Source: Weeksella massiliensis
GTDB lineage: Bacteria; Bacteroidota; Bacteroidia; Flavobacteriales; Weeksellaceae
Direction of reading: 5' to 3'
Length of the DNA stretch: 64,000 bases
Assembly (NCBI GenBank): GCA_000751595.1
Contig: CCMH01000009.1
Span: forward strand, 1 to 64,000
This document shows, piece after piece, positions 3,493 to 5,861 of this stretch. Under the pieces are notes generated by a model. It saw only the letters and a program-made list of their open reading frames with translations. It was not told the origin of the DNA and searched no databases. A program made the position numbers and the translations under genes. Each line of letters opens with the position of its first letter. Position 1 is the first letter of the stretch.

Positions 3493-4539
3493 ATGAAAAC
3501 GATACTCATTACCGGAGGAGCAGGTTTTATTGGTTCGCACGTGGTTCGCGAGTTTTTGCAGAAACATCCGAACTACACAATTGTGAATGTAGATGCCTTG
3601 ACGTATGCCGGGAATTTAGAAAACCTGAAAGATGTAGAACAGCATCCGAATTATCGCTTCGAGAAAGTAGATATTGTCGATGCAAAAGCGGTGAATGATT
3701 TGTTCGCGCGTTATCAGCCCGATGGAGTTATTCACTTAGCAGCTGAGTCGCATGTGGATCGCTCGATCAGCAATCCGATTGATTTTGTGATGACGAACGT
3801 AATCGGAACGGTTAACTTGTTGAATGCTGCAAAAGCAACTTGGCAAGACGATTTTACAGGCAAACGTTTTCATCATGTTTCGACCGATGAGGTGTACGGA
3901 ACCTTAGGAAGCGAAGGTTTTTTTACCGAGGAAACTTCGTACGATCCGCACTCTCCGTATTCGGCTTCCAAAGCATCTTCAGACCATTTTGTGCGGGCGT
4001 ATCATGATACGTATGGTTTGCCGATTGTGATCACGAATTGTTCTAATAATTATGGACCGAATCATTTCCCAGAAAAATTGATTCCTTTATGCATTCATAA
4101 TATCCTAAATAAAAAACCTTTACCGATTTATGGTGACGGAAAATATACCCGCGATTGGTTGTATGTGATCGATCATGCGAAAGCAATCGACTTGGTTTTC
4201 CACGAAGGTAAAACAGGAGAAGCCTACAATGTAGGTGGATTCAATGAATGGACGAATATCGATTTGGTGAAAGAATTGTGTCAGCAAATGGATGAGAAAT
4301 TGGGCAAAGAAGCAGGAACTTCGGAACAATTAATCACGTATGTAAAAGACCGTCCGGGGCATGATTTGCGTTATGCGATTGATGCTACAAAAATAAATAA
4401 AGAATTGGGATGGAAACCTTCGGTAACCTTCGAAGAAGGCTTATCGGCAACGATAGATTGGTTTTTAGCCAATCAGGAATGGTTGGATAATGTAACTTCT
4501 GGTGATTATCAGAAATATTATGAGAAGCAATATAGTTGA
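3493..4539 (+). CDS. rfbB: dTDP-glucose 4,6-dehydratase
   Basis: RfbB/RmlB converts dTDP-glucose to dTDP-4-keto-6-deoxyglucose. The 348-residue extended short-chain dehydrogenase has the NAD-binding TGGAGFIGSHV (residues 7-17), STDEVYG carrying the catalytic Asp-Glu pair, and YSASKASSDHF carrying the YxxxK couple. The family marker TNCSNNYGPNHFPEKLIP is present. It is followed by a repeat-flanked insertion (4544-4991) that separates it from rfbA, which normally lies next to it. The later rhamnose genes rfbC and rfbD are not in the window, so the final sugar made from this intermediate is unknown. Confidence 0.96.
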   Translation: MKTILITGGAGFIGSHVVREFLQKHPNYTIVNVDALTYAGNLENLKDVEQHPNYRFEKVDIVDAKAVNDLFARYQPDGVIHLAAESHVDRSISNPIDFVMTNVIGTVNLLNAAKATWQDDFTGKRFHHVSTDEVYGTLGSEGFFTEETSYDPHSPYSASKASSDHFVRAYHDTYGLPIVITNCSNNYGPNHFPEKLIPLCIHNILNKKPLPIYGDGKYTRDWLYVIDHAKAIDLVFHEGKTGEAYNVGGFNEWTNIDLVKELCQQMDEKLGKEAGTSEQLITYVKDRPGHDLRYAIDATKINKELGWKPSVTFEEGLSATIDWFLANQEWLDNVTSGDYQKYYEKQYS

Positions 4540-4543
4540 AGGG

Positions 4544-4591
4544 GTTAAATTGTTAAGTAGTTAAGAGGTTAGGTAGTTAAGATGTTAAAGC
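4544..4591 (+). repeat. Left array: six tandem 8-bp units GTTARRNN
   Basis: Starting 5 nt after the rfbB stop codon, six consecutive 8-bp units begin with GTTA: GTTAAATT, GTTAAGTA, GTTAAGAG, GTTAGGTA, GTTAAGAT and GTTAAAGC. The period is exact. An array of the same motif in the opposite orientation follows the four-helix-bundle gene (4957-4990). Together they bracket the gene as inverted repeats and could pair in DNA or RNA. Confidence 0.85.
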
Positions 4592-4608
4592 ATCAAGATT
4601 ATTAATTC

Positions 4609-4962
4609 ATGGATATCAAATCACACAAAGATTTAAAAGTTTGGCAAGAGTCCATTACTCTTGTGGAAGATATTTACCAACTAACAGCTAAATTTCCAAA
4701 AGAAGAACTATTTGGATTAACCAGTCAGATGCGTAGAGCCTCAGTTTCTGTACCTTCTAATATTGCTGAAGGAGCTGGCAGAAAAGGTAAATCAGAATTT
4801 ATTCGATTTCTCTACATTTCTTTAGGTTCATTAAGTGAATTAGATACCCAATTAGAAATTGCAATTCGATTAAAATATATAAAAGATGATAAAATAGTTA
4901 TAGAAAGAATTTATTTTATAAAAAATATGATTTCTAAGCTAATCATTAGTTTAAATAACTAA
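4609..4962 (+). CDS. Four helix bundle protein (23S rRNA intervening-sequence protein family)
   Basis: The 117-residue protein is a small, fully helical protein of the S23/IVP four-helix-bundle family. Recognisable blocks are KDLKVWQESITLVEDIYQLT at the N-terminus, FPKEELFGLTSQMRRASVSV, then PSNIAEGAGRKGKSEFIRFL and a SELDTQLEIA helix. Relatives are encoded inside intervening sequences of 23S rRNA genes in other bacteria, occur as free-standing genes in many Bacteroidota, and share a fold with the Avd accessory protein of diversity-generating retroelements. Biochemical function is unknown. Here the gene interrupts rfbB-rfbA in the same orientation, with octamer arrays on both sides, the right one beginning within the last codons. 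That looks like a small inserted cassette (inference). Confidence 0.9.
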   Translation: MDIKSHKDLKVWQESITLVEDIYQLTAKFPKEELFGLTSQMRRASVSVPSNIAEGAGRKGKSEFIRFLYISLGSLSELDTQLEIAIRLKYIKDDKIVIERIYFIKNMISKLIISLNN

Positions 4963-4990
4963 CATTCTAACCATCTAACTTACTAACATA
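4957..4990 (-). repeat. Right array: four tandem 8-bp units, inverted relative to the left array
   Basis: CTAAC pentamers start at 4959, 4967, 4975 and 4983, exactly 8 bp apart. On the minus strand they read GTTAGTAA, GTTAGATG, GTTAGAAT and GTTAGTTA. The array overlaps the stop codon of the four-helix-bundle gene and ends just before rfbA. It is the inverted counterpart of the array at 4544-4591. Confidence 0.85.
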
Positions 4991-5000
4991 AAAAAATACT

Positions 5001-5861
5001 ATGAAAGGAATTATTTTAGCTGGCGGATCGGGTACGCGACTCTATCCGTTGACTATTTCTGTCAGTAAACAATTAATGCCGGTGTACGACAAGCCGATGA
5101 TATATTATCCTTTATCGACGCTTATGTTGGCCGGAATTCGAGAAATCCTCATCATCACCACTCCTCATGATTCAGAAGCTTTTGAGCGTTTATTGGGCGA
5201 TGGTTCGCAAATCGGTTGCCGAATAGAATATGCAATTCAGCCGCAACCCGAAGGATTAGCACAAGCTTTTGTTATTGGCGAAGAATTTATTGGCGATGAT
5301 AAGGTTGCGCTGGTTTTGGGTGATAATATTTTCTATGGTGCAGGTTTAGCGAAGTTACTACAAAGCAAAACCGATGTAGAAGGCGGTTGCGTGTTTGCGT
5401 ATCAGGTTTCTGATCCGGAGCGTTATGGAGTTGTTGAGTTTGATGAGCAACAAAAAGTAGTCTCGATAGAAGAAAAACCTACTCATCCGAAATCGAATTA
5501 TGCGGTTCCGGGAGTTTATTTTTACGACAATCGAGTGGTGGAAATTGCTAAGAATTTGAAACCTTCGGCGCGAGGTGAATTGGAAATTACCGATGTAAAC
5601 AAAGTGTACTTGGAAAGTGGAACGCTAGAAGTGGGCATCATGGGACGGGGAACAGCTTGGCTGGATACCGGTACGTTCGAGTCTTTGCACGAAGCATCGG
5701 AGTATGTTCGGGTGATCCAAAAAAGACAAGGTTTTAGTATCTCTTGCATCGAAGAAATCGCTTATAGAAACGGATTTATTAACAAGGAACAACTTCTGGC
5801 TGCAGCTGAGAAATATGGTAAAAGCGGTTATGGAGAATATTTGAAACAGATATTGGAGTAG
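5001..5861 (+). CDS. rfbA: Glucose-1-phosphate thymidylyltransferase
   Basis: RfbA/RmlA joins dTTP and glucose-1-phosphate to make dTDP-glucose, the substrate of RfbB. The 286-residue protein begins with the nucleotidyltransferase signature [11 protein letters not shown] (residues 8-18). It has the sugar-binding [12 protein letters not shown] block, the metal-binding LGDNIFYG and the C-terminal [10 protein letters not shown]. Length is typical. Its stop codon overlaps the GTG start of the next gene by one base (TAGTG), so the two are probably translated together. Confidence 0.96.

Follow-up and report, generated by a model that had tools for sequence, protein, structure and literature searches.

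Our results show that genes of the PF05635 family are accompanied by arrays of short, regularly spaced words, and that they are so across phyla and far more often than other genes. We think it fairly probable that an array, the gene and a second array pointing back at the gene make up a self-contained cassette, in which a pentameric protein would read its own two cognate arrays. The family is widespread, and we know of no established function for it. The locus on which the analysis centers lies in a stretch of 64,000 nucleotides from Weeksella massiliensis (contig CCMH01000009.1, positions 1 to 64,000; hereafter the window). Its neighbors are two genes that we take to be rfbB and rfbA, names that come from the sequence-only reading of this DNA and from knowledge of the sequences (Table 1).

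Table 1. The array-flanked gene of the window and its neighbors (positions counted from the first nucleotide of the window).
Feature	Position	Strand	Remark	Basis
rfbB (dTDP-glucose 4,6-dehydratase)	3493..4539	+	upstream co-directional neighbor	ORF
Left array, six octamers GTTARNNN	4544..4591	+	G-strand directed at gene	sequence, self-match scan, pattern search
Gene for 117-aa four-helix-bundle protein, PF05635 / TIGR02436 (S23 / 23S rRNA-IVP family)	4609..4962	+		ORF, profile scores
Right array, four octamers, GTTAGNNN on minus strand	4959..4987	-	inverted	sequence, self-match scan, pattern search
rfbA (glucose-1-phosphate thymidylyltransferase)	5001..5861	+	downstream co-directional neighbor	ORF

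Six octamers before the gene, four inverted ones after it, an exact 8-bp period and a right array that overlaps the stop codon had all been noticed in the sequence-only reading, and all stand up to inspection of the sequence, a lag-8 scan and shuffling. The left units read, in order, GTTAAATT GTTAAGTA GTTAAGAG GTTAGGTA GTTAAGAT GTTAAAGC; their six G's are spaced by exactly 8 bp, and the first unit begins 4 bp past the rfbB stop codon (TGA 4537-4539). The four right units, CTAACATT CTAACCAT CTAACTTA CTAAC, are inverted relative to the left array (plus-strand octamer CTAACNNN, minus strand GTTAGNNN), and the stop codon of the gene (TAA 4960-4962) lies inside the first of them. Over 1596 sliding windows covering the whole 64 kb, the lag-8 self-match reaches at least 14 at the two arms only; one lag-7 and one lag-6 site score 14 elsewhere. 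None of 2000 dinucleotide shuffles matches the left arm's score of 17, and two of 2000 match the right arm's 14 (best of periods 5-12). The ORF list holds no other open reading frame between the arms.

In its own 2.56-Mb genome the strict pattern (GTTARNNN three times, then GTTAR) finds the two arms only, with no dispersal beyond them, and it finds nothing in 13 other genomes; the control, the same pattern read backwards, matches once in the own genome and 39 times in one other genome. The genome carries two further PF05635 copies, each with arrays of different words: GTRAANNN octamers flank L003 and CTAGTCC-like heptamers flank L001. At L003 (contig 13, 47270-48669), we observed array blocks that recur over about 1.4 kb in either orientation, some of the arrays gene-less. 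The L003 motif, with 55 overlapping matches, is confined to this one 1.4-kb stretch of the genome.

The sequence-only reading assigned the protein to a family known from rRNA intervening sequences (IVSs) and likened it to Avd. Membership is clear from the profiles, with 132.6 bits for PF05635 (curated cut-off 33.8) and 127.7 bits for TIGR02436 (cut-off 24). The likeness to Avd holds for the fold but not for the profile, since the window protein scores 22.6 bits with the Avd model of diversity-generating retroelements (DGRs), far under the cut-off of 80. The AlphaFold2 model is a four-helix bundle (pLDDT 96.6; helices 10-26, 31-56, 61-87 and 95-116). Foldseek's closest matches to it are Xanthomonas XCC0516 (2gsc, TM 0.92) and Bacteroides thetaiotaomicron 2rld, and it also finds the Avd chains 8ube_D, 8ub7_E and 4dwl_C (TMq 0.64-0.77, weak E-values). 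The PDB entries 2gsc and 2rld contain five chains apiece, and Avd is a pentamer. By homology, going by the crystal chain counts and by the pentamer of Avd, the window protein may form a ring of five subunits. Candidate specificity residues are A56 at the end of helix 2, F64 at the start of helix 3 and residues 103-106 in helix 4.

PF05635 genes are carried by 193 of the 247 Bacteroidota genomes sampled and by none of 14 well-known control genomes. The window protein has no match among 50,697 phage records and matches 44 of 72,556 plasmid records. All five cyanobacterial plasmid matches that we inspected have a joint array, which is weak on the left at L386. With XCC0516 as the query, there was no match above 60% identity in 274 genomes, and no Xanthomonas was among the genomes reached.

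How often do such arrays accompany the family? We scored the flanks of 119 usable Bacteroidota loci (phylum inferred) at periods 7, 8, 14 and 16. The loci, one genome per species, are mostly best-scoring family matches and not a random draw. L113, which has an internal stop, was left out with the length filter, and L100 was kept although its translated frame is wrong. A score of at least 12 was reached on the left at 73 loci, on the right at 68, on either side at 95 and on both at 46 (57-61% per side); at a score of at least 8 the numbers are 108, 105, 115 and 98. With other sets of periods, the same 119 loci reach 12 in 2 and 3 cases or in 0 and 1, at most 3 per side, and they reach 8 in 12 to 19. 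Only four of the 119 lack clear arrays, and one of these is the wrongly framed locus.

The arrays are not exclusive to PF05635. Among flanks of other open reading frames, taken at a distance of at least 400 nt, 14 of 143 and 20 of 142 score 12 or more at periods 7, 8, 14 and 16 (0-2 with other periods). Such flanks reach 8 in 35 of 143 and 42 of 142 windows, with 20-36 matches at other periods; flanks of neighboring open reading frames taken with no distance rule do so in 26-33%. At threshold 8, the control signal is mostly chance, whereas the solo 7/8-nt arrays at 12 or more are real. We had considered whether control scores spill over from the arrays at the gene and rejected this, since the rate persists in windows at least 400 nt away. 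Solo arrays thus occur in 10-14% of nearby control windows, four to six times more rarely per window than arrays at the gene. Altogether they were seen in 34 of 285 windows and at 29 of 107 loci, for example L088, L097, L109 and L095.

Beyond this set, 80 loci from named genomes have an array scoring at least 9 on either side in 77 cases and on both sides in 68, and three lack clear arrays. This speaks against the alternative named in the sequence-only reading, that homologues would lack arrays and the repeats would be chance. Among the 52 of these loci without a Bacteroidota-type label, the same score is reached on either side by 50 and on both by 45; other periods give 7 and 4. The named set includes Planctomycetota, Chloroflexota, Cyanobacteriota, Acidobacteriota, Pseudomonadota, 'Deltaproteobacteria', Bacillota, Fibrobacterota, Verrucomicrobiota, CPR and Methanophagales archaea. 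Besides Bacteroidota, array-bearing PF05635 genes occur in about nine further phyla of bacteria, in CPR and in archaea.

The anatomy of the arrays goes beyond what the window alone had suggested: period 7 is usual, about five units per arm are typical, and the word covaries with the protein. When the two arms of 223 loci were modeled jointly (27 of 34 viral loci were offered to the model), 157 elements scored at least 20, of which 141 have period 7 and 16 have period 8. The heptad model leaves out the 66 elements below 20 and the 16 of period 8. Aligned by EM, the heptad of the 141 elements reads N N N T(0.53) N A(0.71) G(0.94), and the two arms are alike in G content (0.97 and 0.96). The core of a unit is thus a nearly invariant G, usually AG, on the strand that reads gene-ward from both sides. 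The number of G's was grown from a three-unit seed, so that five was not built into the search. Its mode is exactly five, in 75 of 215 left and 103 of 215 right arms at period 7 and in 10 and 12 of 27 arms at period 8. From the last G of the left array to the start codon the median distance is 24 nt (period 7). Period 8, which is only sometimes used, appears to track particular residues, such as N at column 25 (11/18) and R at column 64 (17/55), in 26 elements with phylogeny uncontrolled.

The two arms of one locus share words. Their ungapped score is 15.2 against 8.9 with the arm of another locus, and 67 of 119 loci lie above the 95th percentile of mismatched arms. The joint-array score by itself tells own from mismatched arms with moderate success at most (means of 25.0 and 16.7; 28 of 119 above the mismatched 95th percentile). 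The order of the units is hardly matched. In 88 elements, identity between arms is flat across offsets, with a gain of at most 0.1 base per unit, and the real order pairs slightly better than permuted orders (-28.3 against -27.1 kcal/mol, P = 0.03). Pairing within the sense transcript is not favored: wobble-compatible changes number 161 against 213 for the antisense, and the sense duplex is weaker (-28.3 against -30.2 kcal/mol). The fold of the window transcript is only a little better than that of shuffled sequences (z = -1.72; 5 of 100 do equally well). A hairpin stem in the sense RNA is not supported, given weaker arm pairing in sense than in antisense and a small order effect. The RNA-structured insertion offered as one option in the sequence-only reading is likewise unsupported.

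Word and protein coevolve, and we regard this as firm. The 141 period-7 elements were thinned to 120 that share less than 80% protein identity. In these, covariation links the base after AG to alignment column 62 (z = 17.8), where helix 3 starts, and to column 54 (z = 14.3), where helix 2 ends, and it links the A of AG to column 103 (z = 9.0) in helix 4. With Y at column 62 the base after AG is G in 27 of 32 elements (18 of 20 outside Bacteroidota, viral contigs included), and with F there it is T or A in 60 of 76. At column 54, Q is paired with T (13/15), and Y (10/11) and H (9/11) with G. At column 103, E goes with A in 76 of 81 elements. On a tree of 186 tips, built with the tested columns omitted, edge-disjoint pairs were scored as concordant:discordant. 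Y62/F62 with G gives 13:0 (6 ties), Y/H/W at column 54 with G gives 7:0 (4 ties), and Q with T gives 6:0 (5 ties). E at column 103 with A gives 10:1 (18 ties), T/I/V with G gives 7:0 (5 ties), and C at column 54 with C gives 1:1. No control contrast between columns 62 or 103 and other word positions is significant (lowest P = 0.065).

Which residues touch the word is a more tentative matter. Of 75 validation loci, 48 have period 7 and a score of at least 20, and 35 or 36 of these are below 80% identity to the training set. In these held-out elements, base 1 can be predicted from columns 54 and 62 together (P = 0.0015) and from column 62 by itself (P = 0.048), and base 6 is predicted by column 103 better than by any other column (P = 0.0005). 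However, at least eight other columns (2, 59, 105, 18, 14, 63, 3 and 74) beat 54 or 62 for base 1, and the trained links of column 105 to position 5 (P = 0.28) and 106 to position 4 (P = 0.91) failed; because of this, columns 54, 62 and 103 are put forward only tentatively as the contacts. Columns 54 and 62 also predict positions 2, 4 and 5 (P = 0.003, 0.009 and 0.002), a sign of general family signal, and Y62 goes with G in just two of four held-out elements. In the window, T follows G in all ten units, which is what an A at column 54 and an F at column 62 would lead one to expect; column 103 holds a residue other than E, and the units have no fixed A.

An upstream co-directional open frame (at least 80 codons, stop to stop) ends no more than 60 nt from the outermost G of the left array in 190 of 218 elements, and in 168 this G lies at -15 to +14 nt of the frame's end. 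The only yardstick for this, a minus-strand frame that ends equally near on the right, gives 73 of 218. The strands of both neighbors were resolved at 147 of 263 loci and are (+,+) in 139, (-,-) in 4 and mixed in 4. A rare exception to this co-directionality is L387 on Nostoc edaphicum plasmid pNe_5, where the cassette lies antisense between two ribonucleotide reductase genes.

That the gene had been inserted between rfbB and rfbA, as first proposed from the sequence, is supported by empty sites in relatives. Among 30 rfbA loci including the window, 14 have rfbB directly upstream and lack the gene (gaps of -4 to 63 bp), and genus-mate L275 is one of them. In eight loci, again including the window, a four-helix gene with arrays lies between rfbB and rfbA; one locus has a 418-bp gap and no gene, and seven have another gene upstream. 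The arrays of these eight are of several types. GTTARNNN is shared by the window and L287, which is from another genus and whose protein looks orthologous. The other types are GGTGATGA at L286, GTGAAGAT at L277, GTTGAGTG at L274 and L284, and CCACTAAA at L278 and L279. The proteins of L274, L284, L286 and L287 belong to PF05635 by profile, and those of L277, L278 and L279 were recognized by eye. By eye, too, L289 and L292, both among the 14 gene-less loci, have array-like remnants in the gap.

A second site, between argC and argD in 14 species of another genus, tells a similar story. The gene is present in nine (once frameshifted), with three array types paired with three protein types, and three sites are empty. 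At L375, both arms are joined and the gene is gone, which makes it an array-only derivative; at L369, weak arms surround a different gene (a WG-repeat-like lipoprotein, by eye). Because of these comparisons at rfbB-rfbA and argC-argD, array and gene can be said to be gained, lost and swapped as one, as far as sequences of relatives can tell. The small mobile cassette with octamer ends, which was the other option of the sequence-only reading, stands as a cassette, the site being empty, differently filled or array-only in relatives. Its mobility we infer from presence, absence and swaps.

Ten cassettes (L095, L164, L144, L150, L147, L036, L082, L099, L018 and L123) lie within or against a through-running open frame; eight come from the 218 elements of the gene-boundary scan, and L082 and L099 are additional. 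The host frame is always +2 relative to the cassette gene. Seven of nine scanned host frames match DNA methyltransferase families (Eco57I, N6_N4_Mtase, N6_Mtase, MmeI_Mtase), presumably of R-M or BREX type. Going by these frames, methylases seem tolerant of the cassette as a stop-free insertion. A different observation concerns one Anabaena genome, in which six other places (L240, L243, L244, L245, L247 and L248) carry short AGGGAAT arrays with the same word as the genome's cassette. A motif search found no four-helix gene within 1.5 kb of these six places. The cassette motif has 25 matches in that genome and one in 13 other genomes.

How might such a cassette work? Each subunit of the ring would probably take one word of an array of about five, with a single strand wound round the ring. 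Spacings of 7 or 8 nt do not stay on one face of B-DNA, which would make a single-stranded wrap the better fit. The pairing of pentamer with array would predict 5+5 units, against 6+4 in the window. Protein bound at both ends may hold or synapse the cassette. The strong co-directionality suggests either a promoterless cassette that rides on operon transcription or an RNA step that matters; we favor the former, a putative cassette relying on the transcription of its operon. The cassette has no recognizable enzyme, and therefore any movement would be by host or other machinery; it probably moves as a unit by machinery that the host supplies.

The cassette reading has to be weighed against others that use the same observations. 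A ring with spaced AG words resembles TRAP, and the protein could be an RNA autoregulator of that kind: the pentamer would wrap AG words in the 5' UTR of its own or the operon's mRNA, the CU-rich right array would act as a competing anti-array, and nothing would move. Co-directionality with the operon (139:4) and a left array just 5' of the start codon (median 24 nt, period 7) are what one would expect. We nevertheless consider this unlikely, given that the two arms are equally strict in their G's and in their number of units, that sense pairing is not favored (161 against 213 changes; -28.3 against -30.2 kcal/mol) and that whole cassettes are replaced as units and are missing from syntenic sites. 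That the two arrays are inverted and of equal quality suggests that the ends of a DNA segment, or both strands, are recognized, more than it suggests 5' UTR autoregulation alone. An ordinary transposon-like element, with diverged terminal inverted repeats, a transposase in trans and a periodicity that reflects transposase sites, would account for the inverted ends, the presence and absence at sites, the arms-only L375, the different cargo of L369 and the slight advantage of the real unit order (P = 0.03). It seems improbable to us: arm identity at the matching unit is hardly above that at other offsets (88 elements), the cassette lacks a transposase, its orientation to transcription is nearly fixed, and the motif tracks the four-helix protein.

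The family name and the structural likeness to Avd (8ube, 8ub7, 4dwl) could also suggest a neutral or degenerate relic of an rRNA IVS or a DGR, with the arrays as relics of hairpin stems. There is no rRNA or other Rfam match at window positions 4300-5200 or in ten other loci, the genome has no reverse transcriptase match, and the arrays are conserved and covary with the protein; we hold a relic to be very improbable. Slippage can expand short tandem repeats, a few arms such as those of L059, L124 and L137 are long and almost perfect, and solo 7/8-nt arrays do occur near other genes (at 12 or more, in 34 of 285 control windows), all of which would fit slippage-driven or dispersed microsatellites unrelated to the gene's function. 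This we find scarcely credible. It is already largely contradicted by the rate of 57-61% per side at the gene, the spread across phyla, the fixed inverted orientation, the five-unit mode, the invariant G, the covariation with the protein and a window motif that is unique in its genome.

With the self-contained cassette as the favored reading, a wider proposal is possible, which we hold with less than even confidence. The elements, spread over many bacterial phyla and some archaea, may form a new widespread class, in which a pentameric word-reader is combined with its own two inverted arrays of about five 7/8-nt words, a residue-base code (at about columns 54, 62 and 103) and sense insertion behind operon genes, at times frame-open within DNA methyltransferase genes. 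Array-only relics of such elements would then be a source of the long-unexplained heptameric tandem repeats of bacteria. If members of the family do read the adjacent arrays, their function becomes testable, and for such tests there are already many natural pairs of protein and site, along with part of a residue-base code. The proposal would also provide the first concrete suspect for heptameric repeats that have been noticed repeatedly and left unexplained, as well as a small, naturally diversified word-reading ring protein.

As far as titles and abstract openings of the open literature show, flanking word arrays and their covariation with the protein are new for PF05635. Among the titles and abstract openings listed from open PMC text, none ties the family to flanking repeats. 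By score and fold, the window protein is a clear member of PF05635/TIGR02436 (S23). Compared to the S23 IVS proteins, its gene is free-standing in an operon and not inside rRNA; a 23S rRNA IVS was rejected for its place between rfbB and rfbA and the lack of an Rfam match. Avd of DGRs has the same fold class, and the likeness of PF05635 to Avd has been pointed out before (PMC10053308). The window protein differs in scoring far below the Avd cut-off and in coming from a genome without a reverse transcriptase: RVT_1 has no match in its 54 contigs (100% complete as stated), and a DGR or a reverse transcriptase acting in trans was rejected on this ground. A figure legend in one study places a 23S rRNA IVP in a panel on CRISPR adaptation modules (PMC10910872). 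On Anabaena sp. 90 plasmid pANA02 (L389), a four-helix cassette lies between cas6 and cas4; it is possible that insertion of this kind caused the reported association.

Transposons with terminal inverted repeats, and MITEs, share with our elements the existence of empty sites (14 of 30 rfbA loci; 3 of 14 argC-argD sites). In our elements the arms share words with a flat offset identity and a slightly better real order (P = 0.03); there is no further open reading frame between the window arms, and the strain pairs are too distant for a duplication to be read.

Heptameric tandem repeats have been described in two papers: GGGAATC in Xanthomonas, with 70-75 inverted pairs in each of two genomes, and GGGGA(C/T)T in Nostoc (PMC4692102), and TAACTGA in Beggiatoaceae (PMC4679880). 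G4 or translational regulators are discussed for them, and the terms '23S', 'four helix' and 'four-helix' are absent from the abstracts and passages of both. As there described, these repeats resemble our arrays in their 7-nt unit, few copies and intergenic position near stop or start codons. The other strand of TAACTGA is given as TTATCAG, which is compatible with NNNTNAG. A motif search found a four-helix gene in the flanks of none of 30 cyanobacterial GGGGATT loci; these represent about 20 distinct places, and 16 of the 80 genomes had a match. The link to the published Nostoc repeats is therefore unproven. A possible link to genome-wide heptamer repeats comes from one Anabaena genome and from the solo arrays, and it fails for GGGGATT.

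In the REPIN/RAYT system, a protein is paired with dispersed palindromes. Our elements share with it a protein that has cognate short repeats at its own gene, and array-only copies in one Anabaena genome. They differ in that no catalytic protein is known here, in that the repeats are word arrays and not palindromes, and in that the window motif is undispersed.

The trp RNA-binding attenuation protein, TRAP, is a ring that binds spaced (G/U)AG repeats, one word per subunit. Its fold is different, and the 7/8-nt spacing, about five words, two inverted arrays and element-specific words set our elements apart. As a mode of action, however, a short AG-containing word per subunit at fixed spacing may be common to both: a TRAP-like reader would be in keeping with a mode of five G's per arm and five chains per PDB entry, next to 6+4 units in the window.
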